From Thermococcus sp. JdFR-02 (GTDB lineage: Archaea; Methanobacteriota_B; Thermococci; Thermococcales; Thermococcaceae): a stretch of DNA of 45,373 nt. The stretch spans positions 1 through 45,373 of the forward strand of contig MTLP01000003.1 in the NCBI GenBank assembly GCA_002009975.1, read 5' to 3'. Numbering within the stretch: the stretch's first letter is position 1; each line of letters starts with the position of its first letter. Shown piece by piece: positions 6,807 through 32,517 of the stretch. Made by a program: the position numbers and the translations under genes. The notes under the pieces are model-generated. The model had not been told where the DNA came from. It ran no database searches and worked only from the letters and a program-made list of their open reading frames with translations.

Positions 6807-6808
6807 AT

Positions 6809-8047: not shown

Positions 8048-8057
8048 ACAGCTCCTT

Positions 8058-8941: not shown

Positions 8942-8965
8942 AACATCACCCCAAAGGCGCAGGGG

Positions 8966-8979
8966 TTTAAAAAAGAATC
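8966..8979 (-). promoter_or_regulatory. GATTC-TATA promoter, copy 4
   Basis: The minus strand reads GATTCTTTTTTAAA, 25 bp from ATG 8941. It overlaps the TGA stop of the upstream gene (8978-9772). Confidence 0.85.
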
Positions 8980-9772
8980 AGACTCTGATCTGCTCCATGT
9001 ATCTTGCATCTGGCGGAACTGCTAGAAGCGTCTGGTAGACTCTCAGCAGGTGCCTCCCGCGCAGAGGTTCCACCCAGTGGGCACCAATCACTCCTCTTAT
9101 GGTGTTAACCATCATCTCTCTCTTGCTTCTCACCTCATCTATGGCAGCCTTCTTCGTGTACCCCTCTCCAGAGACGGTCACATAATAGAGCGTTACCATC
9201 GCCCCCTCCTCTCTTATTCTCTTTATGATCCCTTTTATGGTCCTGATGTCCTCCTCCGCAGCCTGTCTTGCTGCCTCGTCTCCCTCCTCTTTTGCCTTCT
9301 TGCTTTTCCTCCTGAGGCGGGCTATCTTCCTCTCGTAGAACTCGATCAGCACCCTCTCGTCGAGGGGGTAAGCGAAGGCACCAATGTTTGTGGGCTCTTT
9401 GAGTGTCATAAGAAAGGAGTTAATCTGATTGAGGTAGTTCGTCTTCTGGCTGTCAGAAAGGTCGATATAGACGCTGTCGGGAACAACCTTTATCAGGCTC
9501 ATTGCCACGTACTTGTCGCCGAGGTTCCTTACCACCACGTCGTCAAGCACCTCAACCACGTTCTCAAGAAAAACACTTCTCTCGCCGAAAAGGTGAGTGA
9601 GGATGTAGTCGCCCTGCTTCGCCATAATCACGCTTGCACCAGCGGTGAGTATTGCGAGAAAAGCCAGGCTCTTGCTGTAAAACACGGAGTACGCGGCTAA
9701 GCCGAAAAGCAGGCTGAGACCAACACCCGCCATGCTAATGAGCTGTGACAGCTTGTAGGGGTTTGCCGCCAT
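8978..9772 (-). CDS. Two-TM protein, possibly PrgI/VirB4-N-like secretion component
   Basis: The 264-residue protein has two adjacent N-terminal membrane segments (residues about 12-30 and 33-50) and a soluble part. That part includes VYIDLSDSQKTNYLNQIN, a charged helical hairpin (ERKIARLRRKSKKAKEEG) and LYYVTVSGEGYTKKAA. The order resembles a PrgI/VirB3-type membrane piece joined to the non-ATPase N-terminal domain of VirB4/TraC conjugation ATPases. No Walker motif is present. ATG 9772 is 24 bp from a GATTC promoter, so the gene is leaderless and monocistronic. The T4SS link is inference from layout; it could equally be a dedicated archaeal pilus platform subunit. Confidence 0.6.
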   Translation of the reverse strand: MAANPYKLSQLISMAGVGLSLLFGLAAYSVFYSKSLAFLAILTAGASVIMAKQGDYILTHLFGERSVFLENVVEVLDDVVVRNLGDKYVAMSLIKVVPDSVYIDLSDSQKTNYLNQINSFLMTLKEPTNIGAFAYPLDERVLIEFYERKIARLRRKSKKAKEEGDEAARQAAEEDIRTIKGIIKRIREEGAMVTLYYVTVSGEGYTKKAAIDEVRSKREMMVNTIRGVIGAHWVEPLRGRHLLRVYQTLLAVPPDARYMEQIRV

Positions 9773-9795
9773 GCAACGGTAAAGAAACCATGAGC

Positions 9796-9809
9796 CTTAT
9801 AAAAGAATC
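9796..9809 (-). promoter_or_regulatory. GATTC-TATA promoter, copy 5
   Basis: The minus strand reads GATTCTTTTATAAG, 24 bp from ATG 9772. Confidence 0.85.
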
Positions 9810-9846
9810 AATAATTGGCAGTGGCTTTTTAATCCAACTTAGGTAT

Positions 9847-10077
9847 TTAGTAAGCTTCTGTTTTATTCATTATAAGGCACAAAATCTTCTTCAGGAATTT
9901 CCTTTTTAGCCTTGCCTTGAATATGGCCGCCCAGCGCCGCTTGTTTTTGATGAAGAGTAGGATGGGACTGAATTTACAATCAACTTGTTCTGATGAAATC
10001 TCCTGCTTTCTTGAAATCTTTTTAACCTCTTCCCATGTAACACCAATTTGTAAGACTGGTATCAATCTACTTTGCAT
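9847..10077 (-). CDS. Doubtful 76-residue basic protein
   Basis: This is the only frame in the 450-bp gap 9773-10223. The product is basic with an IGVTWEEVKKISRKQ stretch and no recognised domain. There is no convincing Shine-Dalgarno sequence or promoter box. It may be a remnant at the left edge of the Argonaute island, or chance. Apart from this frame and the flanking promoters, nothing else was recognised in the gap. Confidence 0.25.
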   Translation of the reverse strand: MQSRLIPVLQIGVTWEEVKKISRKQEISSEQVDCKFSPILLFIKNKRRWAAIFKARLKRKFLKKILCLIMNKTEAY

Positions 10078-10171
10078 CCCATCCCTGTAGGAGACATTTA
10101 GCGTCCTATTACAAAAGGGTTTAGACGTTGTTCCTTATCTCACATAGGTTCGGTTTCAACATTTAATAAAA

Positions 10172-10180
10172 TTTATAAAT
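10172..10180 (+). promoter_or_regulatory. TATA box of the Argonaute operon (not GATTC type)
   Basis: TTTATAAAT in an AT-rich stretch, about 44 bp before ATG 10224, without the GATTC element. A GGTGAGATGA ribosome binding site lies at 10211-10220. Confidence 0.5.
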
Positions 10181-10223
10181 ATCTATTAGACTATAACTTT
10201 CAAGAATTACGGTGAGATGAGCC

Positions 10224-12866
10224 ATGAGAGAGGAATTATGGTGTTTGTATGTATTAAAGGTATTTCAAGAAAAAGGTCAACAAGCATCGCATGAATTACT
10301 TAAGGTAATAATATCAAGCTTATCAGGGGAAGAGATCGAATCTACTGAGTTTAGAAATTTAATTACGCGTCTGCTTGAAAGGGGATTTATACTCCGAGAA
10401 GGAGATGGTTTCACTCTTACTCCCGCAGGAAGTTCAATAATTGAAACTTTACAAGATGGGATACCTGAACTAGAGAAAGATTTTGTAGATGATATCATAA
10501 AAGAATATATTTCTCTTGAAATAAGCAGGAGGGGTAAATTCATTCAGAATTTAAAAGAATCTATTAAAAACGGTAAAGTTTCGCTTGGAAAAAGAGTTGT
10601 TAACCTTTCCGATGATGAGCTTAAAAATTACCTTACAAATTCTGTCCTTTTAACTATTGAAAACATTGAAAAAGAATTTTATAAAATCAAGCTAAAATGT
10701 CAATTTTTTAAGTCTATTAGTAAATCTAGTGATAGGTATAGAATTGGAAGTAAAATTAGCCATAACTTCAAGCAAAAATTAGGATATTGTATTTCCTATT
10801 TGAATGATGACGAACTTACTTTGTTGTCTCCGAAGACTTTAGACAAAAAAGTCTACACTATCGAAAACTACAGGTTAGAAGTTGTGGATATTCAAAAAGT
10901 TGAATTAAATGATGAAGATATTTACCGACTAATAACAAACGAAATTCTACCAGAAATTTTTAAGGATAAAGGTTTTACAAAGACACCAAACAATAGATAC
11001 ATAGACTATAATACACCCTCAGAAAAAAATACCAAGCTAGGTGTACTTAAAATTTTTTCTGGAATAAAAATTAAGATAGATAAACTTTCTTCTAAGGAGT
11101 ACATAATTTGGGTTGACCCTATTTACAGATTTATGTTTAATTTATATGATTTTATAGAATATTTAAAATCCTCTGGTAAAGATTCAGAAGAAATAGTGGA
11201 TTATTTAAAAAATACAATAAAATTTGTGAGAGTACTTCCGTATGACTCTTTTGGTGAGATAAATAAAATCTGGCTAGAAGAAAAAGATATGACAAAAGAA
11301 AGAGTTGAAAATTCTGAAATCACACTTTATGATTTCTGGAAAAATAGGCACTGCATTAAACTAATTAAAAAACAACCAATAATAGGGGTTAAACTTGGTG
11401 AGTCTATTTTTAAATATCCAGCTCAAGTAGTTTATATGGATAGGAAAATATTAGAAAACAAATTTCCTCATATATTGGATGAATTACCAGCTACTGCACT
11501 AAATCCACCGGAAAGATATCAAAAAACCATTGAATTCATAGATAGAATTAGCTGTGAAGTAAACAGAGATTTTATAAGATTAGATATAAATTCTGTTCCA
11601 TTATCTTTGGATTTTCTTATTAAAAATGGATATTTCAAAGAAGTGTATTATTTATCTCCACCATTGTTAAAATTTAATAAAGAGAGACATAGAAAAGAGC
11701 AAATTTCAGATCCACGAGCAATTTTTAAATATGGTCCGTATTCAAAAGGAAAGATTATAAAAATACATTCAGTCATCCATCCAACCCACATTTCGCGTGA
11801 TGAGGTATCGAACTTCATTGATGAACTGCAGAGGGCTTTCCAGAGACACAACTTTGGAAAGCTTATCTTTGATGAAAATACATATTATACTATAACAAAC
11901 AACCTAAGTGTAGACAGAATAGATAAAATAGTTAGGCAAACCCCAATTGCCGCAGGTAATTATCAAAATATAGCAATAGTGATATTGCCAAAAGAATTAT
12001 CATCGCAGGGATATAGACTAAATTTCAAGGCAAAATTTGCGAGACTTAGAAATATTCCTACTCAAATTATACTTGAAGAAACTTTAGAAAAAATAAAAGA
12101 AGGAAATTATGGTATAATAAAAAATTTGCTTATTCAAATCTACTCAAAGCATTTGAATGAAGGAGAAGCACTGTGGGTATTAGAGAATCCCGCAGATGAT
12201 AAAGAACGTTCAATATATGTGGGATTGGGATTCTCCCAAAAACCCCTAGAAGGCAAAAAGGCTAATTCGTTCGCTGCATTGTGCGATGCAAGGGGATTGC
12301 AACTTAAATGGAAACCAATAGGCATGCCATTTCAGGGGAAGTACATAACCGAGCCGTGGTTTGATGGACTTCTCATGTATATAAGGGAAAACCTTAGCGA
12401 TATTATTAACAGAATTGTAATTTATAGGAGGGGAGACACACATTTTAGAGAAATAGAAACAATGAGTTCAGCTATAAATAAATCAAAGTTTTGGTCAAAA
12501 ATAGATGTGAATTTTATATCGGTTAAAGACGATATAAGGAGATTATACATAAAAGGAGAAAATATAACCAATGTACCTCTAGGATTGTTTGTAATTTTGA
12601 GTGATAATGAAGCGTTATGTTACAACTCGATACATCAATCTGTCGAACTAAAACAAGGTACAGTAATTCCAGTAAGGGTAAAATTAGAGATTGGTAACAC
12701 TCCGATTCTTGATATGATAAAAGAGTATTACGACTTATGCTATTTGAATTGGTCTTCTCCTATAACTATATCAAAATACCCGCTTATTTTGAATATTGCA
12801 AATAAAATAGCAGATACCGTCAAGGAACTTCCTGATGAGATTATATTTAACTGGTTACCTCTATGA
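10224..12866 (+). CDS. Long prokaryotic Argonaute, catalytically inactive, with N-terminal winged helix
   Basis: The 880-residue protein is clearly an Argonaute. A MID domain (about 560-660) carries YRLNFKAKF and IPTQIIL, the Y/K...Q guide 5'-end pocket. A PIWI domain (about 660-880) ends with NWSSPITISKYP and a C-terminal helix. An L2/PAZ-side phrase GVKLGESIFKYPAQVVY lies near 390. The PIWI catalytic positions are lost: GLGFS stands where active proteins have G(I/L)DxS, and RRGD where they have RDG. Residues 1-80 form a winged helix (EFRNLITRLLERGFI, then FTLTPAGS), which is unusual and explains the length. In known inactive long-B systems the Argonaute uses a guide to sense invader nucleic acid and activates a partner effector. 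Here the partner is the next gene, 10 nt downstream. The gene is strongly AT-rich. Confidence 0.92.
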   Translation: MREELWCLYVLKVFQEKGQQASHELLKVIISSLSGEEIESTEFRNLITRLLERGFILREGDGFTLTPAGSSIIETLQDGIPELEKDFVDDIIKEYISLEISRRGKFIQNLKESIKNGKVSLGKRVVNLSDDELKNYLTNSVLLTIENIEKEFYKIKLKCQFFKSISKSSDRYRIGSKISHNFKQKLGYCISYLNDDELTLLSPKTLDKKVYTIENYRLEVVDIQKVELNDEDIYRLITNEILPEIFKDKGFTKTPNNRYIDYNTPSEKNTKLGVLKIFSGIKIKIDKLSSKEYIIWVDPIYRFMFNLYDFIEYLKSSGKDSEEIVDYLKNTIKFVRVLPYDSFGEINKIWLEEKDMTKERVENSEITLYDFWKNRHCIKLIKKQPIIGVKLGESIFKYPAQVVYMDRKILENKFPHILDELPATALNPPERYQKTIEFIDRISCEVNRDFIRLDINSVPLSLDFLIKNGYFKEVYYLSPPLLKFNKERHRKEQISDPRAIFKYGPYSKGKIIKIHSVIHPTHISRDEVSNFIDELQRAFQRHNFGKLIFDENTYYTITNNLSVDRIDKIVRQTPIAAGNYQNIAIVILPKELSSQGYRLNFKAKFARLRNIPTQIILEETLEKIKEGNYGIIKNLLIQIYSKHLNEGEALWVLENPADDKERSIYVGLGFSQKPLEGKKANSFAALCDARGLQLKWKPIGMPFQGKYITEPWFDGLLMYIRENLSDIINRIVIYRRGDTHFREIETMSSAINKSKFWSKIDVNFISVKDDIRRLYIKGENITNVPLGLFVILSDNEALCYNSIHQSVELKQGTVIPVRVKLEIGNTPILDMIKEYYDLCYLNWSSPITISKYPLILNIANKIADTVKELPDEIIFNWLPL

Positions 12867-12876
12867 GGGTGAAGAT

Positions 12877-13848
12877 ATGAATAACACCTTCGAGGAAAAG
12901 GTAATACAGGTACTAGAGGAATGGCAATGGGAACCTGCAAAAGAGAAAATTGAAATTGAATTAGACCCAAAAGTAAATAGATTCTCAACACTTCTTTTCT
13001 CATATGATAATTGGGAAACTATCTACAAAATACTAAGAAATTGTGTAAACAATGGTAAATACATCTATATATCAAATTATTTCCGACCGTTGGAAGACAT
13101 TAAACGTATGGTTATCGACTTATATCAAAAGAATTATGACTATATATTAGATTTTTTGGCTAAATATGTTGAACAATACAAAAATATCAATGATGAGGAT
13201 GCTAATAAGCTTAATGAGATCTTAAATAGCTTCCTTTATGATGATATTTTTGAAGAGACTCCTGAGGTGTTAGAATACTGCCAGAGCTGTGAAAAGATAC
13301 AAATCGTAGGAGAGAAACAAAGAGATGAGAGATGTATGTGTGATAGTAGGATATACAAAATTTTTAAATGTGTCTTGAACCCTAATATTAAGAAAAGTCT
13401 ACAAAATAATCAATTTATAGAAATTTATGTTAAAGAAATCTTTAAGGAAGCTAGTTTAAAAGTTATTTCTAAAAGAGTAAATGGAAGCGTGGTATCTACA
13501 AGTATTCCGTATAAGGTCCCACCCAACCCGCCAGTAGAACTAGATGTCGTAGCAGTTTATAATGACTGGATATTTCTATGTGAATGCAAAACAAAAAAGA
13601 TAATTCCAAACGATGTTGCAAATAAATTAGGCCAAGCAAATAGGTTAGTAAAGCGTATTTCTAAGCAAATAGGAGTACGGGATTTAAATGTAATATATGT
13701 GTGGGTGACAACTGAAGAAATTGACAAAAATATTCATCCATCTGGTTATCTTGAAGATTATGAATGGTTAAAGGATTTATTGTTTATTGATAAAGATAAG
13801 ATAATCAATTTAAAAGATGAAATAAGAAAGAAATTAATATCTTTTTAG
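12877..13848 (+). CDS. Argonaute-associated PD-(D/E)XK nuclease with zinc ribbon
   Basis: The 323-residue protein has an N-terminal helical region and a four-Cys zinc-ribbon-like cluster (YCQSCEK near 134-137 and RCMCD near 153-155). The C-terminal PD-(D/E)XK nuclease core has ELDVVAV (Asp about 222) and FLCECKTK (Glu-x-Lys about 235-237), then a helix with GQANRLVKRI. The core resembles the DUF1887/Card1-type and HJC-like nucleases. ATG 12877 follows a GGGTGAAG, only 10 nt after the Argonaute stop; the longer frame from 12835 would overlap it. By analogy with the nuclease partners of long-B Argonautes, it is the likely effector that degrades DNA once the Argonaute detects a target. Confidence 0.85.
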   Translation: MNNTFEEKVIQVLEEWQWEPAKEKIEIELDPKVNRFSTLLFSYDNWETIYKILRNCVNNGKYIYISNYFRPLEDIKRMVIDLYQKNYDYILDFLAKYVEQYKNINDEDANKLNEILNSFLYDDIFEETPEVLEYCQSCEKIQIVGEKQRDERCMCDSRIYKIFKCVLNPNIKKSLQNNQFIEIYVKEIFKEASLKVISKRVNGSVVSTSIPYKVPPNPPVELDVVAVYNDWIFLCECKTKKIIPNDVANKLGQANRLVKRISKQIGVRDLNVIYVWVTTEEIDKNIHPSGYLEDYEWLKDLLFIDKDKIINLKDEIRKKLISF

Positions 13849-14734: not shown

Positions 14735-15094
14735 CTAGCCACCAAATATTGCACCAATCAGATCCGCGAACCAGCCGAGTATCTTGTCCCCGTACTCTGC
14801 AGTTACATATATGCCCACCGCTGCAAGAAACACTTTTTCAGCCACATCTCTTGCGTACTCTTTGGATGTAGCGCTGCCTTTGCCCATGTTGGAGTAAGCA
14901 AAGAGCAAGAAGCTTACAAGGAGTGCAACCTTCGCCAGCGTCTTAGCGATGCCCTTGAGAGACTCCCAGAGGTTATTCACAGGCTGTCCCTGGAGCTGCC
15001 CTGCGGTGGAAGTGGCGGCGAACACTGGCTGCAAAAACACCAGCACCGTCATCAGCGCAAGCACAATGCCCACAAGCCTTCTCATGTACACCAC
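14735..15094 (-). CDS. Possible VirB2/TrbC-like pilin precursor
   Basis: The 119-residue product has a signal sequence (residues 1-26, cleavage after QPVFA), a hydrophobic helix (about 45-68), a polar loop (GKGSATSKEYARD), a second hydrophobic helix (about 84-98) and a hydrophobic C-terminus. Signal peptide plus two helices and a short loop is the plan of VirB2/TrbC conjugative pilins and of the archaeal pilins reported as homologous to them. The match is by layout, not by residues. GTG 15094 is 23 bp from the promoter box at 15117-15130; ATG 15085 is the alternative start. It is first in a four-gene operon. Confidence 0.6.
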   Translation of the reverse strand: MVYMRRLVGIVLALMTVLVFLQPVFAATSTAGQLQGQPVNNLWESLKGIAKTLAKVALLVSFLLFAYSNMGKGSATSKEYARDVAEKVFLAAVGIYVTAEYGDKILGWFADLIGAIFGG

Positions 15095-15116: not shown

Positions 15117-15130
15117 TTTAAAAAAGAATC
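15117..15130 (-). promoter_or_regulatory. GATTC-TATA promoter, copy 6
   Basis: The minus strand reads GATTCTTTTTTAAA, 23 bp from GTG 15094 of the pilin operon. Confidence 0.85.
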
Positions 15131-15175
15131 AGGCCTTGTGGAACAGGAACTCTATCAACGCGCCATCCTTCTCTT

Positions 15176-15790: not shown

Positions 15791-17446
15791 ATGCTCACCA
15801 GGGTTGCAGATGCCTACTTCGGGACTCTTCAGAGGATCAGTATCGGTCAAAAAGTAGTTATTTTCAGCGACTTTTCTGCAATAGGGAAGCATTTTGGGTA
15901 CACCATTTCACCTGGTGAGATAGAAGGCAAAATAATCGTCCTGTTCCTGCCCCTGGTTCTTATAAACCTGGTCCTGTCAGTGGTAAGCAGCATCTTCGCC
16001 ATTCTTGCTGTACTCTCGCTTCTCGCAGCGGTGGTGTTGTTGCTGATACCGAAGTTGCTGCACGCTATGCTCAGGGTGGCCTTCTTTTCAGACCTCTTCA
16101 GCTTTTCAATATACTTCCTGACGCTGGCCAACTACAAAAACCTGTATCAGTGCTTTGAAGCCGCAGCCGCCAGAACAGAGACGACTTTCTTCAAGAGGGC
16201 GCTTGTCAGGTTGCAGCTTGGCGAACTCAAATCTGTGCAGGAGGCGATGAGGTATCTAATAGAGGAGACTAGGGACTTCGGGTACGAGGCATACGAGATC
16301 CTGAGCATAATCGAGGAGGAGGTTGGCAAGGCAAGCCCCAGCTACGAAGCCGCACTTTCCGAGGTGTTGCTGATACAGCAGGGCCTGGTTGGAGTGACCA
16401 CGGAGAGATTCAGGTCTGCGCTGAACATGGCCCTGGGCGTGCTCGGGATACTTCCTGCAGTTGTGCTCACGCTCGTGCCATTCTTCCTTATGATGGCCAA
16501 CTTTGACCCTACCCTCAGCTTCGTCATGGCGGCGGTACTGCTGCTCATTTTCAACATCTTGGCAATGCTCCTGCTTGCTACGAGCCTGCCTGTCGGCGGC
16601 AGCTTCGTGAACGTTAAAAATGTTGACTGGATGACGGTGAAAGAGCTTTTTGGCATAAAGAAGGCATCTCTCCCAAACAGGGTGGAGCTCCTCTACCTGA
16701 GCCTGGCTCTGCTCCTGATGGGTGTCGTCTCCCCCGTCTTCATAGTTTTCTCAGGTGTGGTCCTCGCGCTATATGCGGTGCCTGCGATGGATTATGAAGC
16801 CCTGCTTGGTAGAATTTCCAGAGAGTTGCCGTCAGTACCGGTGTTCGCCCGAAAGGTATCATACAGGCTGAGAAGGGACATGGCCCTTGAGAAGGCGCTC
16901 GAGGATCCAACGACGATCTCCAGAGCGGTTAGGGTGAAGGCATGCACAAGGACGTTCCTTATTGAGGAGGCATCTGTACTAGAGAGGGTTATATACGACA
17001 TGGGCGAGATGGGCAAGAAGCTCGGCGAGTCCCTCGCAGCGCTTGCGAAGTACCTGAACGAGAGCATCAAGCAAAAGCTGCTCACTGCGCAGCTGTTCAG
17101 AAACTTCCGCCTCACGATATACCTGCTCCTGTTCTTCATTCCCCTTATCCCCATAGTAAGCATCTTTATTCTGAAGATGATCTCCGGCTACACGGGTTTT
17201 GAGCCGTCTGGTTCCGATATACTGGGGGGATCCATCTTCTTCGAACTAATGGACAGGATGAAGGAAGTCAACACAAAGGCTGCAGCGGTGAGCACTCTCA
17301 TGGTATCTTACGTGACGAACGCCTGCTTGGCGGTGCTCGCTTCCTTCGCCTCTGGTATCTACTACAGCGAGAAGTACAGGTTTTACCTGCTGCTCTCTGG
17401 GATTGCATTTACCATTACAGGGCTACTACTGATACTTGTAATCTAG
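15791..17446 (+). CDS. T2SSF/TadC/ArlJ-like inner platform protein
   Basis: This 551-residue membrane protein has paired hydrophobic segments near residues 50-100, at about 215-275, again near 300-330, then at about 440-470 and the C-terminus. Between them lie helical cytosolic domains such as FEAAAARTETTFFKRALVRL and LEKALEDPTTISRAV. Two repeated platform domains with this hydrophobic pattern are typical of archaeal TadC/ArlJ (T2SSF) proteins, which seat the assembly ATPase of pili and archaella. No such ATPase is found in this window. It is co-transcribed with the ParA-like gene. Confidence 0.65.
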   Translation: MLTRVADAYFGTLQRISIGQKVVIFSDFSAIGKHFGYTISPGEIEGKIIVLFLPLVLINLVLSVVSSIFAILAVLSLLAAVVLLLIPKLLHAMLRVAFFSDLFSFSIYFLTLANYKNLYQCFEAAAARTETTFFKRALVRLQLGELKSVQEAMRYLIEETRDFGYEAYEILSIIEEEVGKASPSYEAALSEVLLIQQGLVGVTTERFRSALNMALGVLGILPAVVLTLVPFFLMMANFDPTLSFVMAAVLLLIFNILAMLLLATSLPVGGSFVNVKNVDWMTVKELFGIKKASLPNRVELLYLSLALLLMGVVSPVFIVFSGVVLALYAVPAMDYEALLGRISRELPSVPVFARKVSYRLRRDMALEKALEDPTTISRAVRVKACTRTFLIEEASVLERVIYDMGEMGKKLGESLAALAKYLNESIKQKLLTAQLFRNFRLTIYLLLFFIPLIPIVSIFILKMISGYTGFEPSGSDILGGSIFFELMDRMKEVNTKAAAVSTLMVSYVTNACLAVLASFASGIYYSEKYRFYLLLSGIAFTITGLLLILVI

Positions 17447-17573: not shown

Positions 17574-17596
17574 CTCGATATTTATAAATAAATTTG

Positions 17597-19504
17597 ATGA
17601 TAAGGAATAGATTGTCTAAGAAGCTCAAAACTCTAAATAGGTATAGTACCGGTACCAAAATTTATATAATTTATATGTTCATACTTTTAATAGGTGTATC
17701 TTTCCTAATTTATATTTATACCTTTCATGAAGAATATCTATCTGGCGTATTTGCCGAAGTAGATTCTGCTAGATATCTTTTAAGCGCGGAGGCACAAGCT
17801 CAAGCTGCAATTTTGGGAATAGTAATTTCACTTACCCTGATAGCTATTCAATTAGCGTCACAGTCTTATTCAAGCAGAATTATCGAGGCTTTTGTTAAAG
17901 ATAAATGGTTATGGCTACTTTTATTGTTATATTGTATATCTATAATGTATGATTTAGTGATTCTTAGTTTAATTTCAAACAATTTCAAATATATTCAAAT
18001 ATTTGTTGTTTTAAGTCTTATTCTTATGACTTTTTCTATTGGTCTATTGTTTCCTTATATAGATTCTGTTACAAAGAAGCTATTGCCCGGGAGTATCATA
18101 AGCAGCATAAGTAATCAAATTAAAAGAGAAGAATTATTAGACGAAATAAACAATTTGACACATTCTGATTTTATTATGTTTAAATCTTTTAATGAGGAAA
18201 CATCAATTCGTCCAATATTAGATATTATAAAAGCAAGTATTTATAATAATGATCCTGTTACTGCAAAATATGGGATTAATGAAATAGCTAAAATTGCAGA
18301 AGATGTTTTCAAGTATATCTATGGCCCATCAGAAACTAAAAAAGCATTATCATTCTTTTTTGGACATATTTACGAAATATGGCAAACAACATTAATAAAA
18401 AAAGATGAATTGACCGCTATCCAGGTGGCAATATGTTTAAAGAATATTATAAAAATTGATAAAGAAACTTTAAATTATATCCCATCGTTCTATTATAAAA
18501 TATTCACTAAATCATTATTTGACACATCAATTAAGAATAATTGGGACGAATTTCTGGAAGAACTCATAGATATACATATAGAATTAGCTGACATATCTGT
18601 CAAATATAATTTGGAAAATTCATTTAATGAAGTCATTAATGCGTTAGAACAAATTGGTACCGAAACCATGAGATATGGAGACCGGTATATACATTACATT
18701 TTTATTATTAATAAAAAATTAGGCGAATTTTTGGAAAATTCTGTAGTAAAAAAGTGGGGTCCTGTTTCAGCGGATATTTTGAAATATATACAAGAAACAA
18801 GTGAATTTTTAATTGAAAATGCTAAATCACATACTATACTTGCATCAATTTTTTCTGGTGACTGGGGTAGATTTATGCCTTTAAATAATCTGGAAAGTAT
18901 AGCGAAAATTTTAATTAATAATGATTTCTATAATGATCATTGGTGGTATAAATTATTTTCGTTTTATTTATTACGGGAAGGTCCTTATTATAATATTGGA
19001 AAGAAATATGCACAAAAAATCTATGGAAATCCTTTATTTGACATAATAAAATCACTTGAAGAGATTGGAATACATGCAATTGAGCATGGATATGAAGAAG
19101 CTGTAGAAACTGTAATTAAAACTCTTACAGATATAGCGGTTGTTGATTTATATGAAGGTGGACCTAATATTGATAAATTTTTGCAAACTTTTAATGTAAT
19201 AAAAGAAAATTCACCTGATAAACTTCAAAAAAATATTTTTAAATGTGTAAATTCATCTGTAGAAGAACTAACGGAAAAAGTTATTGATATTGTGCGATCA
19301 ATAAAAGAAGATGAAAATTCAAATATATTAAGATATTGTAATCTTTTAATAGAGATGGGGCAGTATGGTTATAAGAATGTTATTGATCAAGTTTTAAGGA
19401 ATCATGCGGAGACTTCCCAGTATATACGAGGTTATAAAAAATTTGAGCAATTGAGAGACTGTTACTATGAAAAAAGTTCAGGTGAACCTCATTTTGATGC
19501 CTGA
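17597..19504 (+). CDS. AT-rich orphan membrane protein, DUF2254-like N-terminus
   Basis: The 635-residue protein has four membrane segments in residues about 20-155. One phrase, ILGIVISLTLIAIQLASQSYSSRI, closely recalls the FSitlvalqlaSsqySPR signature of DUF2254 membrane proteins. The remaining 480 residues are soluble, helical and repeat-like, with no enzyme motif. Base composition is far more AT-rich than the surrounding genes and the GATTC promoter is absent, so it was probably acquired. Membrane segments plus a long sensor-like domain would fit a defence or stress effector, which is inference. Confidence 0.6.
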   Translation: MIRNRLSKKLKTLNRYSTGTKIYIIYMFILLIGVSFLIYIYTFHEEYLSGVFAEVDSARYLLSAEAQAQAAILGIVISLTLIAIQLASQSYSSRIIEAFVKDKWLWLLLLLYCISIMYDLVILSLISNNFKYIQIFVVLSLILMTFSIGLLFPYIDSVTKKLLPGSIISSISNQIKREELLDEINNLTHSDFIMFKSFNEETSIRPILDIIKASIYNNDPVTAKYGINEIAKIAEDVFKYIYGPSETKKALSFFFGHIYEIWQTTLIKKDELTAIQVAICLKNIIKIDKETLNYIPSFYYKIFTKSLFDTSIKNNWDEFLEELIDIHIELADISVKYNLENSFNEVINALEQIGTETMRYGDRYIHYIFIINKKLGEFLENSVVKKWGPVSADILKYIQETSEFLIENAKSHTILASIFSGDWGRFMPLNNLESIAKILINNDFYNDHWWYKLFSFYLLREGPYYNIGKKYAQKIYGNPLFDIIKSLEEIGIHAIEHGYEEAVETVIKTLTDIAVVDLYEGGPNIDKFLQTFNVIKENSPDKLQKNIFKCVNSSVEELTEKVIDIVRSIKEDENSNILRYCNLLIEMGQYGYKNVIDQVLRNHAETSQYIRGYKKFEQLRDCYYEKSSGEPHFDA

Positions 19505-19619
19505 AAAAAAGCCTCAGTACTAATCTTATTACCTAACTTGTAAAATTGAAAAATAATTGGTAAAAGAACGGGAAGCTATTATCTTGTATGTCTTTATCAC
19601 TGTGTCTTGATCTAAGTGT

Positions 19620-19633
19620 GATTCCTTTATAAG
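19620..19633 (+). promoter_or_regulatory. GATTC-TATA promoter, copy 8
   Basis: GATTCCTTTATAAG, 25 bp from ATG 19658. Confidence 0.8.
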
Positions 19634-19657: not shown

Positions 19658-21937
19658 ATGCGCAAGCTCATAGCTGCGATACTGACCATTACTCTGCTCG
19701 CTGGCTTCGCCTACCTGTTGCTACACCACGAAAAGAAGATAGAGTGTAGGGCGGAGTTCAGCTATGGTGAGGATGGGAGATACATCCTTATAGACCCGCC
19801 CGGAACCGTGCTTATTAATGAGATACAGCTCAAGGACATCACATTCAGAATAAACGAGCGTGCAGACGTGTACAAGCTCTACTACAGGTGGTCGCCCGAA
19901 ACTAGGGTGAGCTTGAAGGTCTACACTGACAGAGGCGTGTGCACCATCTCAAAGAAAACACCCTCAGTTAGGGAGTCACTCACATTTGAGACTGTTGAGA
20001 GCATACCAGACCATATCTTTGTCAGGGTGGACAGTGCAGGCTACAGGGTATCCATCCTGACCTTTCAGACGCCTCTGAAAGTTGTCCTCTACAGGGGGCC
20101 TTCGGTGTTTACTGATGAGGGCGACCTTTACAGGGTCTACACTCTGCTGAAGAGGCAGCTCAGGGAAGCCGGTTTTGAAGTGGAGGAGAGCACTGAGGTA
20201 TCAGGGGATATTGCCGTGATTGCAGGGGGTGTAATCCCTCAGAACCTGAGTACAGAAACAAAGATAATCTACCTGGGCAAGACGCCGCCAGGGAAGTACA
20301 TTGCGAACCCCTCGGGAGGCATAGATAAGGGAGAGCCCATCGTCAAATTCGTCGAGAGCACATCAGATTACCTGCTGCCTGAGGGCAGAGTGAAATCGCT
20401 CTACTACCCTGCAGGGATAACAGAGTGGCTGAAAAGAAGGGAAGACGGACAGCCGGGGGTCTTTGCCTACAGAAACTTCGTCATCTACACATCAGGCATC
20501 GATGACTTCCCCTCTCCAGAGGTCTGTGCGAGGGAGGTGCTGAGGACCATCCTCAAGGGCAGGCTTGTGGAGTTTGAGGATGACAATTATATCAACGCGA
20601 AAGTGGTGCTCCCTGCGGAGCCAGGCAATTACACAGCTGTGGCTCTCGGCTGGAAGGGAAGCTTTATCTCCACCTCTAAAAAGCTCACTGTAACTGTGCC
20701 GGAGACGAAGGGTGATGTAGAGGTGAGAAGGGTCTCTAGCAGGGAGGCCAGGGTGTCTGTTTTCTCGGAAGACAAAACAGCTCTGTGGCTGGTAAACTAC
20801 TACAACGGGTACATGAGCAAGGACGTGTTCAACCTCTCCAGCCCAGTGGCGACGATCACAATCAGCCTCCATGACGGCGGCAACCTTCTCGTCTTGTACA
20901 ACTCAAAAGGTGAAGCTTTGGCAGCCCAACATGTACACGTCCCGCACTACAGAGTTGTTCTTGAGGACAATGTCCCTGTCCTCTATAGGGATGGACAGCC
21001 CTATAGCGGTGAGGTAACGCTGCTGACAAAGAGAGGTGAGAGAAGGGTCTACGTTAATGGGGGCAAACTTCCCAGAGCGGAGTTCGTCGTGGTGGACGGC
21101 TTTAACATCCCGATACCCAGAAGCCACTACAGCGTTACACCTGAACATATTCTCATCCTGATTGTGTTCCTGTTCATGGTCTTCTCAAAGCTGAAGAAAG
21201 AGGAGAAGGATGACGAACTTATCATAGTGTTCCGCAGGCCCGTCAGTCCCGGCGAGGAGGAGTCTGTGGAGATATCCGCTGAAGAGGTGGTGCACAGCAT
21301 GGAGAGGTTCTCTGAAGCCGTGGGCAGAAAATGGGTGCCTTTGAGCGCCGACGAGGTCAGGATGGCCCTTATCAAGTACGCTCCAAATGTGACCTTTCAT
21401 CCATCCCTCAAGGAAGTCAGGTCCCTTATGGATGCGATGGCCGCTGCGGGCTACGTGGTGGCCCAGGATGGGTACTACGCTCCGGAGAGGTGGTGCAGGG
21501 ATCAGAGCATGCTCCATCTGGTGATGTGCAGAGCGATCTATGAAAAGTTGGTGGAGAGGGGAGTGGCAGCGAGGATAACGACCAAGATGAGGGTGGAGGA
21601 GGTGCAGAGGGAGGTCAGGGCAACCGGAGACGGTATTGAAGTGGTTGAGAGAACCGTAAAGAAGAGGGCGAAGGTTCCAGATGTTGTGGGTGTAAAGGGC
21701 CACCGATTCTTCCTGGTGGAGTGTGAGACGGGGAAAAACAGAAATCCGAACAAAATAAAGGCGTTCATAAAGAAAGCTCAGGCGTTTCCCGAGAACTTCG
21801 TGTTCATTCTCGTAATCACCCCGGAGGCGCAGAAGATCCTCGATGCTGCCATCGAAGAGATCGGGCCAGTGCTCAGAGAGCTGGAAGAGCAGGACAGGTT
21901 CCAGCTTTACTACTACAGGGACGGGAAAATTTTCTAG
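19658..21937 (+). CDS. Membrane protein with external beta domain and cytoplasmic winged-helix/PD-(D/E)XK-like domain
   Basis: ATG 19658 is chosen over 19646 because it lies at the leaderless distance from the promoter. The 759-residue product has an N-terminal anchor (LIAAILTITLLAGFAYLLL), a long external beta-rich region to about residue 490, and a membrane helix (about 496-513, HILILIVFLFMVF). The cytoplasmic part has a possible winged helix (SADEVRMALIKYA to YYAPERW) and then PDVVGV, FFLVECETGK and FVFILVITP. The last three match the Asp and Glu-x-Glu/Lys core of PD-(D/E)XK nucleases, such as those at the end of replication-relaxation proteins. A nuclease held under the membrane beside pilus genes suggests DNA processing during transfer. 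No test of activity is possible here. Confidence 0.7.
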   Translation: MRKLIAAILTITLLAGFAYLLLHHEKKIECRAEFSYGEDGRYILIDPPGTVLINEIQLKDITFRINERADVYKLYYRWSPETRVSLKVYTDRGVCTISKKTPSVRESLTFETVESIPDHIFVRVDSAGYRVSILTFQTPLKVVLYRGPSVFTDEGDLYRVYTLLKRQLREAGFEVEESTEVSGDIAVIAGGVIPQNLSTETKIIYLGKTPPGKYIANPSGGIDKGEPIVKFVESTSDYLLPEGRVKSLYYPAGITEWLKRREDGQPGVFAYRNFVIYTSGIDDFPSPEVCAREVLRTILKGRLVEFEDDNYINAKVVLPAEPGNYTAVALGWKGSFISTSKKLTVTVPETKGDVEVRRVSSREARVSVFSEDKTALWLVNYYNGYMSKDVFNLSSPVATITISLHDGGNLLVLYNSKGEALAAQHVHVPHYRVVLEDNVPVLYRDGQPYSGEVTLLTKRGERRVYVNGGKLPRAEFVVVDGFNIPIPRSHYSVTPEHILILIVFLFMVFSKLKKEEKDDELIIVFRRPVSPGEEESVEISAEEVVHSMERFSEAVGRKWVPLSADEVRMALIKYAPNVTFHPSLKEVRSLMDAMAAAGYVVAQDGYYAPERWCRDQSMLHLVMCRAIYEKLVERGVAARITTKMRVEEVQREVRATGDGIEVVERTVKKRAKVPDVVGVKGHRFFLVECETGKNRNPNKIKAFIKKAQAFPENFVFILVITPEAQKILDAAIEEIGPVLRELEEQDRFQLYYYRDGKIF

Positions 21938-21942
21938 CCCCT

Positions 21943-21956
21943 GATTCTTTTTTAAG
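21943..21956 (+). promoter_or_regulatory. GATTC-TATA promoter, copy 9
   Basis: GATTCTTTTTTAAG. An ATG at 21976 is 20 bp away. The TatA gene starts at 22048 behind a strong Shine-Dalgarno sequence. Confidence 0.8.
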
Positions 21957-22047: not shown

Positions 22048-22203
22048 ATGATTGGTACAGCCGAGTTGGTAGTTGTTGCCGGAATCGTGGTGCTGCTCTT
22101 CGGTGCCAGCAAGATACCCGAACTCGCACGCGGTCTCGGAAGAGCGAAAAGAGAATTCATAGAAGCTGCAAAAAGCGATTCGAGAAATGGCAGCGAAGAG
22201 TAG
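22048..22203 (+). CDS. tatA: TatA, pore subunit of the twin-arginine translocase
   Basis: The 51-residue frame has the complete TatA plan: a short membrane helix (AELVVVAGIVVLLFGASKIP), the FG hinge, and an amphipathic helix (ELARGLGRAKREFIEAAK). It starts at ATG 22048, 7 nt after AGGAGAGGTG. TatA multimers form the export channel for folded proteins carrying an SRRxFLK signal. The same window encodes such a protein (3973-6771) under the same promoter class. No TatC is present, so this copy must use a TatC encoded elsewhere. It is followed 2 nt later by 22206-22736. Confidence 0.9.
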   Translation: MIGTAELVVVAGIVVLLFGASKIPELARGLGRAKREFIEAAKSDSRNGSEE

Positions 22204-22915: not shown

Positions 22916-23998
22916 ATGAGTGATACAGATACCAAGAAGCTGAAACTCAAAAATTTCCGTGGAGTGAAAAAAGGGGAAGTTGAACTTGGGGATATGACAA
23001 TACTTATAGGGGCGAACAACTCCGCCAAGAGCACAATACTTGAGGCAATTTTTCTTATTTCAAACCCGCTCCGCTCTGTTCCCTATATGAAGCCCGCAGA
23101 AAAAGATGTAGCCCTGCCTCTTAACGCCGTTTCACTAATTCATGAGTTGCACAAAACCCTCACTAGTGAGGGATATGCTTTTCTGCTGTATAAATACACC
23201 GCCGACTCGGCGGAAATAGGGTTAAACTTTAAGTCACGCAACATACAATTAAACTATGCATACTTACGTTTTAAAAAAACGGGTCATGAAATATTCCTAT
23301 CTACAGATATACCGACCATTACTCATAAAAATTTCCACACCCCTGCCGGAATCGTCAAAGCGTTTGGAAGTCTGGGAGTATCAGTTAATAAAACCACCCC
23401 TGAATTTTTAAATGATGTTTTACTGACAGAAGAATCCCTCTTAATCTCTTCCGAGCTTATAAAGCATGCCTACTGGTATATGCACAACAACTGGGCAAAT
23501 ATAATGAACCTTGGCATAACCAAGGAGGTTGCAAAGGACATCTCCCGTCTGGTTAATGAGAATTTTGTGAACATAACAATAGAACCATTTTTGGGAGGTA
23601 GGCTTTCAGTATTTGGCTTTCTCGAAGACGGCACTAGGATAAGGCTGGGAGACCTCGGTGCAGGTGCGCAGATATATATAACCGCTAGGATATTGTACGA
23701 ACTCACAAAGCCAAAGCTTCTGCTCTGGGACGACGTAGAGTCCCACATGAACCCCCGCATGCTTGTAAGAATAGCTGAGTGGTTCTCCGAGCTTATCAAG
23801 AATGGAGTCCAAATTGTAATCACAACCCACAGCCTTGAGGCCGCTAAAATAATCGCCGAGTTCATTGAGGATGCCAAAATCTGCACAACCACACTAAAAG
23901 ACGGCATGCTTAAAACAAGAGAACTGTCAATAGATGAAGTTAACAGCTTACTATCTGCAGGAATCGACGTTAGACTTGCAGATACGGTGATAGTGTGA
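22916..23998 (+). CDS. OLD/AriA-like AAA ATPase
   Basis: The 360-residue SMC/ABC-type ATPase has LKNFRGVKKGEVEL at the N-terminus, Walker A GANNSAKST (about 33-41), a signature LGDLGAGAQIY (about 243), Walker B LLLWDDVESHMNP (about 268) and a switch histidine in ITTHSLEAAK. Walker B reads DD in place of the usual DE. The layout is that of the AAA_15/21 group, which includes OLD nucleases, Gabija and PARIS AriA. The C-terminal TOPRIM domain of OLD is missing and the next gene overlaps by 4 nt (GTGA), as expected for a split ATPase/effector pair. ATG 22916 is leaderless. Confidence 0.85.
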   Translation: MSDTDTKKLKLKNFRGVKKGEVELGDMTILIGANNSAKSTILEAIFLISNPLRSVPYMKPAEKDVALPLNAVSLIHELHKTLTSEGYAFLLYKYTADSAEIGLNFKSRNIQLNYAYLRFKKTGHEIFLSTDIPTITHKNFHTPAGIVKAFGSLGVSVNKTTPEFLNDVLLTEESLLISSELIKHAYWYMHNNWANIMNLGITKEVAKDISRLVNENFVNITIEPFLGGRLSVFGFLEDGTRIRLGDLGAGAQIYITARILYELTKPKLLLWDDVESHMNPRMLVRIAEWFSELIKNGVQIVITTHSLEAAKIIAEFIEDAKICTTTLKDGMLKTRELSIDEVNSLLSAGIDVRLADTVIV

Positions 23999-24672
23999 GG
24001 CTAAAACCTCTTAGTCCACAACTTGAAGCAAAGATGAAGAAAAAATTATCAAAATTGATATCAAAAAATTTTAAAAACAATATTTTATCCGGAGATGGCG
24101 ATATTCGCTCCCTCATCATACTAGGAGATGGAGATGGAGACGATCTTGTCATCCCTATAGTTTGCCATCACCTCAACGGTGAGAAAACAGTTGGAATAAC
24201 AAAACCCGTAAATCCGAGAATAGGGGCTATAAGTGAGCTGCCAGTTATCCTCCCTCTTTTGAACGTTAATAAGATAGCCCTGGTAATGGACCAGGAAGGA
24301 GACGAATTAAAACAGCTATATAAACAAATCGAGAAGAAATTGAGGAAGATGAACGTAAAATTTGAAAAAGGAGATGCTGACAGGAGGCTTGTGCGCTATA
24401 TTTGCAAGCTTGGTCCAAGAAAATTTGAGCTTATCTTAATTATAAGTGGGATAGATGAGATGCCCTTGAAGATGCATAAAATCGAAGATCATTTACTTAA
24501 GGCTCTCTCAAAGCTTTCAAAAACAGAATATGATGTTGGAGATTCAAAGGAAGCATGGGAAGGCTTAGACAAATCTACTCAGCGAGAAGTGCTTCTGAAG
24601 CTGAAGGATTCCAGAAACCTGTGCCTTGGTATATTCTCCCAGCATTCTAAGGGTCTGGAACTTTTAGAGTAG
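23995..24672 (+). CDS. Partner of the OLD-like ATPase, possible TOPRIM-like effector
   Basis: The 225-residue product has acidic clusters at beta-strand ends (ILGDGDGDDL near residue 44 and ALVMDQEGDEL near 95, then KGDADRRLVRY). The Asp-x(4)-Asp pattern after a hydrophobic strand recalls TOPRIM/DUF3226 or DUF4276-like partners encoded beside AAA ATPases. The match is weak, and coupling to the ATPase by a GTGA overlap is the stronger clue. In PARIS-like systems the ATPase holds the effector until a phage protein triggers release. That role is only suggested here. Confidence 0.65.
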   Translation: MRLKPLSPQLEAKMKKKLSKLISKNFKNNILSGDGDIRSLIILGDGDGDDLVIPIVCHHLNGEKTVGITKPVNPRIGAISELPVILPLLNVNKIALVMDQEGDELKQLYKQIEKKLRKMNVKFEKGDADRRLVRYICKLGPRKFELILIISGIDEMPLKMHKIEDHLLKALSKLSKTEYDVGDSKEAWEGLDKSTQREVLLKLKDSRNLCLGIFSQHSKGLELLE

Positions 24673-28825: not shown

Positions 28826-31800
28826 TCAACCATGACTATCTCCTATTATTTTCTCTTTTGCTAATCTTTCAATTTCTTGGCTATCTATCCTTCCATCCGG
28901 GCCATCTTTAGAGATAATTAGCTTTTCAAAGTAATCATTTTCTTTATACCATTTTTCTTTACTCTCCCATTCTTTTTTGTATTCAGGATCCTCTAACATT
29001 CCAAGATGTTCCCAATAAAACTCTTCCCCTTCATACTTTATTGTAAAATCTGGGAGACGGAAATCTTGCGGATTTGTTTTTGAATACAATGGTTTCTCAT
29101 ACTCATAGCTTATCCCCAAGTCTGTCAAAATATTTGCGATAATGACCTCAGATTTTGATCTTACCAATACACCTGTTTTTGTTCTATGTATCAAGCGTTC
29201 TGGATGAGGTATTCCCACAGTTTCAGGACGAACAGACAGTTCAAAAAGATTGGTGTTTCTTCTTAAAATCTCTGAGTATTGAGGGTTTCTAAAAATAATT
29301 AGGGGACTCACATCTTTTTCGATCAGGACGATTGTTTTCTTTTTGAAGCGTGTTAAGGCTGTATATAGTAATTCTCGAGACATAGTCCCAGCACTTTGAG
29401 GTAGAATGAAAAAAACGATATCAAAGTCACTTCCCTGAGATTTATGGACAGTAATCGCATAGGCTAATTCGAGGTTCTCATCAATCTCACTTCTATAGTA
29501 CCGGTATGTCAAATTAGGTTGAGTTGGGAATTTTACATCAATTGAGTCATATTTCTTGCTAGTATTCACTATCAACCCCACTTCTCCGTTTGCCACATAA
29601 CCATCTACCTTATAATTATCTTTCCAACCATCTCGCTTTGAATTAACAACCTGAATAACTTTATCATTCCATACCATTTGTTGCTCACCAAAAGGTTTTG
29701 GTTTTTTGCGTTTAGCTCTCTCTATTAATCCCCGTCTATATATTTTTTGAATAACTCTATTTATTTCGGTTGTACCAAATATTTGCATTCGGGTAGGAGA
29801 AAGAATTTGCCATTTATCAGGTTTCTCAATAGATTTATTAAATCCATCAAAATCAGGCGTGCTACCTTCATTTAATTTTATATTATCTCTGATAGCTTTC
29901 AATAACATTTCATAAAGTTCTTCCTCGTTATCCCAGAAGTGAACTTCCAAGTCTCCTGATACTTTACCCTGTGCTACCTGAGAGAGAATTTCATCATCTC
30001 CTGGTGAAGTTCTGTCCATTAAGAAAGAATCCGCAAGTTTTAAACACTGACTTTCTAAATTTTCGTGTCGGACTCTTTGAGTTAATTTAGCGATATGTTC
30101 CTTTCTGTTGCCGTCAGATTCCAACCATTTTATAATATCTACAAATGGGCGGCCGGGACCGATTGGGGGCAATTGATTTGGATCTCCTACAAGAACAAGC
30201 CGTTTTACATAATTGAAATCAATGGCTCTAAATAAGACACCCAATAAATCCATAGGAATCATCGAAGCTTCGTCAATAATTACTGTCTGAGCCCCCTCAC
30301 TGTTTCCTTCTTTTTCCTTCAATGAGAAGGTTTCTCCTCTAATCCACCCCAATCTCATAAGGAACTGATGGATAGTTTGAGCATTTTCGCGTGTTTTTTC
30401 TTGCAACCGAACCCTGGCTTTCCCGGTAGGAGCAAGCAAAAGTATAGATTGCTTCCCCTCTTTCTCTCTCAAACCTCTGATGAAGACTTTTAGTACGGTA
30501 GTCTTCCCAGTTCCTGCGCGACCTGTAAGTACAGAAAACCGAAATCTAAAGAGTGTATCAAGGGCTTTTATTTTCTCCTTGCGTGCTCTTTTTTCAATTT
30601 CTTCATTCAATATTTCAATATCTTTAAATTCATCGCAAAGAAGTTTCTCCCAAAAACTTTCGCCTGCATTTTCATATTTTTTTTCAACCATTACTTCTAA
30701 ACGTTTTTTAACTTCTAATTCCATCCTGTGGAGTGATTTTAGAGCAATCACTTTTGGATTTTCTTCCGGGAAAAAGCTAATTCTTTCTTCGAAGAAACTG
30801 CGATTATTTATAATAATATCTCGATCTGGCTCACAAATTCGATTTTCTGGAAGTCTTTTACGCACCCTTTTAATAGCTTCATCTATAGAAAGGCAAGTAT
30901 CCCCTTCTTGGGATGCTTCCTTCAAAATTTCAACCAATAAAGCTCTCACTCTTCTTTTATCATCATTACTTATAGATTCAATTTCTCCTTTAATTTTCCC
31001 GACCTCTTCAGATGGGATCATACCTCTATCTATTGTCTCAAAATCTACCGGTGGTGAGTCCTTATCCCCGTCATCCAACTCTGAGATTATATATGGATTC
31101 TCTATTATTTCCCTTTCTGACGCCTCTATGAAAGCTTCTCTTCTTTTTGTAGGATCACATATCCTCTTTATTTGTTCTGGAGATAACTCAAAATGGCTTA
31201 AAACCTTAAGAAGCTCCCTTTTTTCAGGAGGTATGGTCTGCCATTTGGCACAGGATTTTCTGAATTCATTTTGATATTCTTCTGGAGCGCTTTTTTTCCC
31301 TTCTAGAATTGAAACCACGAAATCATAAATATTTTCTCCATTAGCTTCTCTAGGTGATAGAACTGTGCGGTGATATATTATCCCATTTTTGAAACCGAGA
31401 TATTCTAAAACGCTCCCAATCCCCGGGAAACGCCCTCGGTTTTTCCATACCTCTTCTAAAACGCTATTTAACCACTTCAATCTATATTCCCATGTTTTGC
31501 CGTACGGTTCCGGCACTTTATTCTCAGCAATAATGGTCTTAACAGACTGTATTACTCTTTCAATGATTCCTACTGCAATATCATCCGGCACATGCTCTGC
31601 TACATAGGAAAAGTAAGGACGGGCTGAAATTGGTATGGTACAGACAATATTTGATAGATCATAGCCGTTATTGATATATTCTTGATATGGTAACCGGATT
31701 CCTTCTTCAGGAAAATTGTGTATTATACATCTAGACCAAATGGGATAATCTTCCATATAGCCTTTCTTTTTTCCAAAAAAAAGTTGATTTCCAATCTTTG

Positions 31801-32302
31801 AAATACGTCCTATTCCTACAAGTATTCGATCACTTTTTTCTTCTTTCAAAGGATTACCATGGTTTACATAGAAAAAAACTAATGATTTTCCGGGTTCGAT
31901 AGGCTTCCAAAACTCATTTAATCTTTCCAACTGCCTTTTAGGATTATCTTCCCATCCTTCGCCACTTTCTTTGAACATTCTCCCATATGGACTTGTGCAG
32001 AAAGAATATGGGGGTATATCTTCTTCCACTTCTGGTAAATTTCTCCAGTCTAATGGATCATAATGTATAATCTTAAATCCGATAGGAGAAAATGCACCGG
32101 GATCTCTAGAACAAGGTGGAAGATTTTTCAATTCTATTTCTGAAAGTTTTCTACCAGTGTTTTTTTCCTCAAATATATCGTCTCTACCGTCTCTTATATG
32201 CTCATGAACCATACAGGAAGTATTATGTTTTGGTTTCTTGCAAATGCAACCATTCCATCCACTATCATGCCAAGCAAGTCTTGCCGATAGATGAACAGTC
32301 AT
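28826..32302 (-). CDS. RecD-like SF1B helicase with C-terminal nuclease-like domain
   Basis: This 1158-residue protein has an N-terminal half of unknown function with Cys residues (GCICKKPKHNTSC). A RecD/TraA-type helicase follows with Walker A TGRAGTGKTT (593-602), APTGKARVRL, Walker B IIDEASM (676-682), VGDPNQLPP (705-713) and ITVHKSQGSDF. The last 100 residues carry RSKSEVIIANIL, LPDFTIKY and FYWEHLGM, which look like the conserved acidic core of a PD-(D/E)XK (DUF559-like) nuclease. It lies 215 bp downstream of the Shedu gene on the same strand and shares its AT-rich composition, so the two probably act together. The helicase may unwind or track DNA for the nuclease. Confidence 0.85.
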   Translation of the reverse strand: MTVHLSARLAWHDSGWNGCICKKPKHNTSCMVHEHIRDGRDDIFEEKNTGRKLSEIELKNLPPCSRDPGAFSPIGFKIIHYDPLDWRNLPEVEEDIPPYSFCTSPYGRMFKESGEGWEDNPKRQLERLNEFWKPIEPGKSLVFFYVNHGNPLKEEKSDRILVGIGRISKIGNQLFFGKKKGYMEDYPIWSRCIIHNFPEEGIRLPYQEYINNGYDLSNIVCTIPISARPYFSYVAEHVPDDIAVGIIERVIQSVKTIIAENKVPEPYGKTWEYRLKWLNSVLEEVWKNRGRFPGIGSVLEYLGFKNGIIYHRTVLSPREANGENIYDFVVSILEGKKSAPEEYQNEFRKSCAKWQTIPPEKRELLKVLSHFELSPEQIKRICDPTKRREAFIEASEREIIENPYIISELDDGDKDSPPVDFETIDRGMIPSEEVGKIKGEIESISNDDKRRVRALLVEILKEASQEGDTCLSIDEAIKRVRKRLPENRICEPDRDIIINNRSFFEERISFFPEENPKVIALKSLHRMELEVKKRLEVMVEKKYENAGESFWEKLLCDEFKDIEILNEEIEKRARKEKIKALDTLFRFRFSVLTGRAGTGKTTVLKVFIRGLREKEGKQSILLLAPTGKARVRLQEKTRENAQTIHQFLMRLGWIRGETFSLKEKEGNSEGAQTVIIDEASMIPMDLLGVLFRAIDFNYVKRLVLVGDPNQLPPIGPGRPFVDIIKWLESDGNRKEHIAKLTQRVRHENLESQCLKLADSFLMDRTSPGDDEILSQVAQGKVSGDLEVHFWDNEEELYEMLLKAIRDNIKLNEGSTPDFDGFNKSIEKPDKWQILSPTRMQIFGTTEINRVIQKIYRRGLIERAKRKKPKPFGEQQMVWNDKVIQVVNSKRDGWKDNYKVDGYVANGEVGLIVNTSKKYDSIDVKFPTQPNLTYRYYRSEIDENLELAYAITVHKSQGSDFDIVFFILPQSAGTMSRELLYTALTRFKKKTIVLIEKDVSPLIIFRNPQYSEILRRNTNLFELSVRPETVGIPHPERLIHRTKTGVLVRSKSEVIIANILTDLGISYEYEKPLYSKTNPQDFRLPDFTIKYEGEEFYWEHLGMLEDPEYKKEWESKEKWYKENDYFEKLIISKDGPDGRIDSQEIERLAKEKIIGDSHG

Positions 32303-32517
32303 TATATACCTCCCATTGAAAATTCGGACGAAATTTCATATAAATGTTTTTGGTGCATCCGAAGCCTTTTAAGAGCTTGATAACGATAGCGAACTGCATG
32401 CCAGCTGTTAAATGATCCTCTAAGGGGCAATGTGCGAAGAACTGCAGAGCACTCACGCCTTTATAATTTATGATGAAAACATTTTTACTTGATGAAATAA
32501 TGCTAAAACTCAACACA

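Follow-up and report, generated by a model that had tools for sequence, protein, structure and literature searches.

P0001 is probably an undescribed membrane component of a Ced/Ted-type archaeal T4SS-like DNA-transfer apparatus that is carried on a mobile element. Its gene lies on a 45,373-nucleotide contig (the window, by which we mean this whole stretch of DNA) of a MAG binned as Thermococcaceae-like. The protein comprises an N-terminal helix, ~470 residues outside the cell, a second helix, and ~240 residues inside (520-763), where a winged helix is followed by a tail resembling PD-(D/E)XK nucleases. This topology is supported by a distant relative, the promoter is shared with other genes of the element, and the relatives of P0001 are associated with VirB4/VirB6-type genes in two separate settings. 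From these features we infer that the cytosolic part contacts DNA and docks the DNA, the motor, or both, and also which neighboring gene products are its partners.

The preliminary description placed the start of the gene at position 19658. The reading frame is intact, and the TATA-like box at 19619-19633 favors 19658 as a leaderless start, given the usual spacing of archaeal promoters (Table 1). The membrane helix noted in that description was also borne out, in that two hydrophobic helices are present. If the N-terminus is inside, then residues 28-495 lie outside and residues 520-763 lie inside. A relative from Micrarchaeota supports this placement, as its N-x-S/T sequons number 27 in the 492-residue outside region, 0 in the winged helix, and 1 in the tail. 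However, the outside domain is not an all-beta protein, as had been proposed. Although the whole-protein single-sequence AlphaFold model proved unusable as a structure (mean pLDDT 36, and thus indicative only), it alternates helices and strands between residues ~145 and 305 and has mostly strands between residues 359 and 490. The suspected winged helix (residues ~539-620) is predicted confidently, with block pLDDT values of ~76-92 in an AlphaFold model of the C-terminal part made from a two-sequence input.

Table 1. Positions in the window of the P0001 gene, its predicted parts, and associated genes.
Feature	Position	Strand	Evidence
P0001 gene, 763 aa	19646..21937	+	One intact ORF; probable start 19658
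Core promoter TGATTCCTTTATAAG of the P0001 gene, instance of the element-wide type	19619..19633	+	18 window sites vs 0.25 expected
P0001 membrane helix 1, residues 8-26	19667..19723	+	Mean hydropathy 2.47
P0001 outside region, residues 28-495	19727..21130	+	Between the two helices; z 35.5 to P0002 outer region; sequons in Micrarchaeota relative
P0001 membrane helix 2, residues ~496-514	21131..21187	+	Hydropathy 1.96
P0001 cytosolic winged helix, residues ~539-615	21260..21490	+	pLDDT ~76-92; in 3/3 members, z 14-20
P0001 predicted C-terminal PD-(D/E)XK-like core, residues 617-763	21494..21934	+	Hjc-type profile match above 50/50 shuffles; fold model of low confidence
P0001 motif P678-D679 ... 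E692-C693-E694	21677..21727	+	Pattern, paralog, and Hjc alignments; relatives do not keep the motif
VirB2/TrbC-like pilin gene, same promoter type (15117-15131)	14735..15094	-	PF04956 E 1.3e-4, below cut-off
Short MinD/ParA-like ATPase gene, orthologous to the gene preceding P0002 on C22	15211..15786	+	PF01656 E 3.7e-8; z 27 to C22 gene
TadC/T2SSF-like membrane protein gene, same gene run as MinD/ParA-like gene	15791..17446	+	PF00482 E 0.0011, below cut-off
VirB4 N-terminal-domain-like membrane protein gene, same promoter type	8978..9772	-	z 22 to C22 protein, 7.5 to Micrarchaeota operon protein
TatA-like gene downstream of P0001, same promoter type (21942-21956)	22048..22203	+	PF02416 E 3.7e-15

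The P0001 family has three known members. A paralog called P0002 (805 aa, 30% identity to P0001) is encoded on contig C22 of the same MAG, and a search of a Micrarchaeota MAG with a profile of these two proteins yielded the third member (786 aa, E 2e-10). The family has no assignment in Pfam, NCBIfam, or PADLOC, and PHROGs gave only a 27-residue match (E 0.03). Among 115 genomes of the phylum, matches were confined to the window's own genome (0/114 others), whereas searches of plasmids and viral contigs gave nothing and phages gave one chance-level match. Weak matches to a profile of the tail in the phylum genomes were rejected, as those inspected looked like chance (one was an aminotransferase frame, for example, and another resembled Cas2).

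Conservation within the family is uneven. The members are most alike in the cytosolic winged helix, with the Micrarchaeota version giving z 14-15 to those of P0001 and P0002, whereas the outside part diverges fastest and hardly aligns with that of the Micrarchaeota member (z -1.3 for P0001 and 4.7 for P0002). Given that two thirds of P0001 is outside, that this is the fastest-diverging part among members, and that the Micrarchaeota member is rich in sequons there, one might suppose that P0001 serves mainly at the surface, in adhesion, entry exclusion, or recipient recognition, and that its cytosolic part is an anchor or assembly handle. This we judge very improbable, because an inert anchor would not explain why the cytosolic winged helix is conserved best.

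The genomic settings of the two relatives point to a part in DNA transfer. On C22, genes for VirB4-N-like, pilin-like, and MinD-like proteins are followed by P0002 and then, on the opposite strand, by the gene for a 450-aa VirB4/HerA-type ATPase that matches CedB with an E value of 2e-26 (below the model cut-off). P0002 thus sits between a MinD-like gene, orthologous to the one upstream of P0001 (z 27), and a CedB/VirB4-like ATPase gene. The gene for the third member closes a run of chromosomal genes that encodes four VirB6-like proteins, two VirB4-N-like proteins, and one VirB4 ATPase, beside which are genes resembling topoisomerase VI and other core genes. The labels VirB6 and VirB4-N in this run derive from length, helices, and position, with support from similarity scores, and the VirB4-N label of the window gene is inferred from the place of its counterpart beside the ATPase. 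The Micrarchaeota and C22 ATPases are clearly related (z 85), and this Micrarchaeota MAG has the only VirB4 relative found in the named genome collection. In addition, a 308-aa C22 protein without a Pfam assignment matches a Micrarchaeota multi-helix protein (z 7.4) and is a candidate for a VirB6/CedA-like channel. A VirB4-type ATPase is therefore present at the locus of both relatives, and these two widely separated settings tie the P0001 family to VirB4-type machines. As a separate observation, an Hjc-like nuclease gene in the Micrarchaeota MAG is next to another VirB2/VirB6/VirB4-like locus, the second in that genome (L010:7051-7488 and 7790-11107).

The window itself yielded no VirB4 ATPase, and the only one found in the assembly is that on C22. 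Thus, the window element is incomplete, is cut by the contig end, or borrows its motor. No VirB6/CedA-like channel protein was recognized in the window, and the alignment of the pilin-like proteins of the two elements is not significant. The window (contig C18) and C22 have several gene families in common, and both end in one stretch of 1,079 bp (window 44295-45373 and L004:7367-8445; 88% identity), which runs off both contigs. On these grounds we regard them as sibling mobile elements. C22 also encodes integrase-like, Orc1/Cdc6-like, and TFIIB-like (L003:3934-4812) proteins, and its common promoter is of another kind, built around TATATACTTCC and found upstream of L003 6070(-), 7879(-), 7931, and 8817.

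The assignment of both contigs to a host is doubtful, given a fragmented metagenomic assembly and their foreign composition. Chromosome samples have ~38% GC, compared to ~50-57% in backbone stretches of the elements, and codon usage is clearly different. The assembly yielded no archaeal 16S gene, although its absence is common in MAGs. A CcsB/CcmF-like cytochrome c biogenesis gene at window 67-1023 is unexpected for a Thermococcaceae-like bin.

The P0001 gene belongs to a set of genes that use one promoter type. The sequence TGATTCYTTTWWAAD, in which TGATTC directly abuts the TATA box, is present at 18 window sites compared to 0.25 expected (≤1 mismatch), including 2989, 6793-6822, 8966, 9796, 15117, 15175, 19619, 21942, 26969, 34315, 37217, 39119, 40964, and 42984. 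When five samples of 20 kb each were taken from chromosome contigs of the same assembly (38% GC), the strict pattern was absent from all of them. Such sites precede the P0001, VirB2-like, VirB4-N-like, MinD-like, and TatA genes, among others, which agrees with the earlier proposal that P0001 shares a regulon with pilus-like genes. Of the listed sites, none lies upstream of the AT-rich defense genes inserted in between, indicating that the P0001 gene is part of the element backbone rather than cargo. The motif suggests that there is an element-specific TFB or another reader of this site.

Because a strong regulon spans the element and P0001 has a sensor-helix-winged helix architecture, the protein might itself be a transmembrane one-component regulator similar to ToxR or CadC. 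In such an arrangement, the outside domain would sense contact or a pilus, and the winged helix would control the TGATTC regulon or some other promoter. We find this improbable for several reasons. The motif sits on the TATA box like a core-promoter (BRE-like) element rather than an operator, and C22 encodes P0002 yet shows another promoter motif. Furthermore, the order of helix, winged helix, and nuclease-like tail differs from that of ToxR/CadC. Finally, charge calculation reveals that the winged helices of P0001 and P0002 are acidic, and so charge does not support contact with DNA by this domain.

Other genes of the window are worth recording in their own right. An AT-rich gene for a DUF2254 membrane protein (17594-19504) separates the TadC-like gene from P0001. 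One AT-rich insert (10224-13848) encodes an 880-aa argonaute-like protein (PADLOC pAgo E 9e-57), overlapped by a 337-aa partner with weak PD-(D/E)XK similarity, and a second (28826-33804) carries a RecD-like candidate defense helicase (PADLOC PDC-S68, nearly full length) beside a Shedu SduA protein. An OLD/AriA-like ATPase followed by a 225-aa protein (22916-24672) is possibly a PARIS-like pair. Both elements encode large cysteine-rich proteins (window 3973-6789 and L004:2360-5296) with a twin-arginine stretch, which reads RRGFLK in the window copy and SRRGVLK in the C22 copy, and the window element carries its own TatA (22048-22203) within the TGATTC+TATA regulon.

The C-terminal tail of P0001 had been described as nuclease-like on the basis of PDVVG and VECETGK, and both are indeed present within its last 145 residues. 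Local ORFs totaling 67,389 aa contain three matches to the generic pattern PD-hhh-x(3-8)-hhhE, two of these being P0001 and P0002 at an equivalent position, and the pattern arises in 206 of 20,000 shuffles of P0001. The Pfam Hjc profile (PF01870) covers exactly PDVVG..VECETG, with an E value of 0.027 and 14.8 bits, which is below the cut-off of 21.1. When the tail was compared by hhalign to an Hjc-type profile (11 Hjc proteins from same-family genomes and one Hjc-like Micrarchaeota protein), the score was 31.4 with a probability of 55%, compared to a maximum of 18.6 for 50 shuffles. This alignment pairs D679, E692, and E694 with the catalytic Asp, Glu, and Lys of Hjc, respectively, and the local spacing of the motif is the same. 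A profile restricted to the 11 Hjc proteins gave 19.5 against a null maximum of 16.2, and support was weaker with P0001 and P0002 jointly as the query (19.5, reached by 1 of 50 shuffles). We therefore hold, with moderate confidence and from sequence comparison, that the tail is a real PD-(D/E)XK-derived core.

Structure prediction agrees with this assignment in part. The predicted order of elements fits the alpha-beta-beta-beta-alpha-beta core of PD-(D/E)XK proteins, but confidence for the nuclease part is low (pLDDT ~39-55), unlike that for the winged helix, and a Foldseek search with the C-terminal model found nothing at E ≤ 0.001 in the PDB or among viral models. A precedent also counsels caution: a restriction-endonuclease domain was claimed for SPEARE, a nanohaloarchaeal protein with a link to a VirB4-type ATPase, but subsequent authors found none there and disputed the claim (PMC10266531). 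The preliminary description pointed as well to the C-termini of replication-relaxation proteins. Members of that family (PF13814) have a winged helix and then a core with an acidic motif, a layout that P0001 resembles as a lead only. The likeness went no further, as the PF13814 profile matches 0/3 members (P0001, P0002, and the Micrarchaeota protein) and nothing in the window's own genome. The profile search likewise gave no relaxase match.

The residues needed for catalysis are another matter. The D ... (D/E)-x-K signature of PD-(D/E)XK nucleases is D-ExE in P0001, with Glu replacing the catalytic Lys, and D-ExV in P0002 (D705-E719-V721), while the Micrarchaeota relative has SDIIATIRQKTYKLFIFSQTSG at the motif, with Glu at neither position. 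The three tails also lack significant pairwise sequence alignments, unlike the winged helices (z 14-20), and the tail of P0001 is basic (+5, pI 9.3) whereas both others are acidic. Because the catalytic residues are not conserved, cutting cannot be the common job of the family, and docking or coupling is the likelier conserved role. P0001 may be an exception, with its basic tail and three retained acids. Some restriction enzymes, such as BamHI, tolerate ExE in place of ExK, and since P0001 is predicted to keep an acidic triad of this kind, cutting by P0001 itself is possible.

These data bear on the earlier idea that P0001 cuts or processes DNA on its way through the membrane. In its strongest form, P0001 would be an active nuclease, tethered to the membrane, whose nicking or trimming of DNA at the transfer channel would make up for the missing relaxase. 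Much that underlies this idea has held up, including the membrane attachment, the winged helix, the PD-(D/E)XK-like core with D679/E692/E694 in the Hjc register, the basic tail, and the company of T4SS-like genes, and archaeal conjugation is described as proceeding with no recognized relaxase in the account given by PMC9905601. The cutting itself has fared less well. The third catalytic position is Val in P0002, both Glu residues are gone from the Micrarchaeota member, both of these tails are acidic, P0001 lacks the catalytic Lys, and confidence in the fold is low. We consider an active nuclease unlikely. Less likely again is a broader arrangement wherein an undescribed nuclease-derived membrane-spanning part would be common to T4SS-like machines of mobile elements and of a DPANN chromosome, and P0001, having kept its acidic active-site residues, would process DNA at the channel in place of a relaxase.

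Membership in a DNA-transfer apparatus, which we favor, can be compared with systems already known. The Ced and Ted systems of Sulfolobales and Thermoproteales (CedA/CedA1/CedB/CedD and TedA/TedB/TedC) likewise have a VirB4-type ATPase, along with a VirB2-like pilin and a VirB6-like channel, for both of which the present loci offer candidates. Here, however, the presumed N-terminal part of VirB4 is encoded as a membrane protein of its own, and the genes reside on contigs of a Thermococcaceae-like bin and on a chromosome of Micrarchaeota. No component with the architecture of P0001 features in the portion of the Ced/Ted literature drawn on here. With respect to Hjc, P0001 differs in that the domain forms the end of a membrane protein, in addition to the changes at catalytic positions noted above. 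Plasmids of the pT26-2 family, from Thermococcales and Methanococcales, encode a VirB4-like ATPase along with several membrane proteins, for which a role in DNA transfer is presumed (PMC6972569). Such a gene content is a point of likeness to the sibling elements, but a search of the 114 other genomes of the phylum found no member of the P0001 family.

The outside domain of P0001 is probably directed toward the pilus or the partner cell. Inside, docking of the DNA substrate, the VirB4-type motor, or both at the membrane channel is probably the task of the winged helix and the PD-(D/E)XK-derived tail. The neighboring MinD/ParA-like ATPase probably acts together with P0001, roughly as bacterial VirC1 and a coupling protein deliver DNA. 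Ted loci carry MinD/ParA ATPases, as the loci in the window and C22 carry MinD-like genes, and a VirC1-like role in bringing single-stranded DNA to the channel has been proposed in the treatment of these loci by PMC9905601. As portrayed in the same source, archaeal conjugation has few known parts beyond the pilin, the channel, and the motor. P0001, whose relatives are neighbors of motor genes in two archaeal settings that are far apart, is thus a concrete candidate for a role in delivering DNA to the channel.
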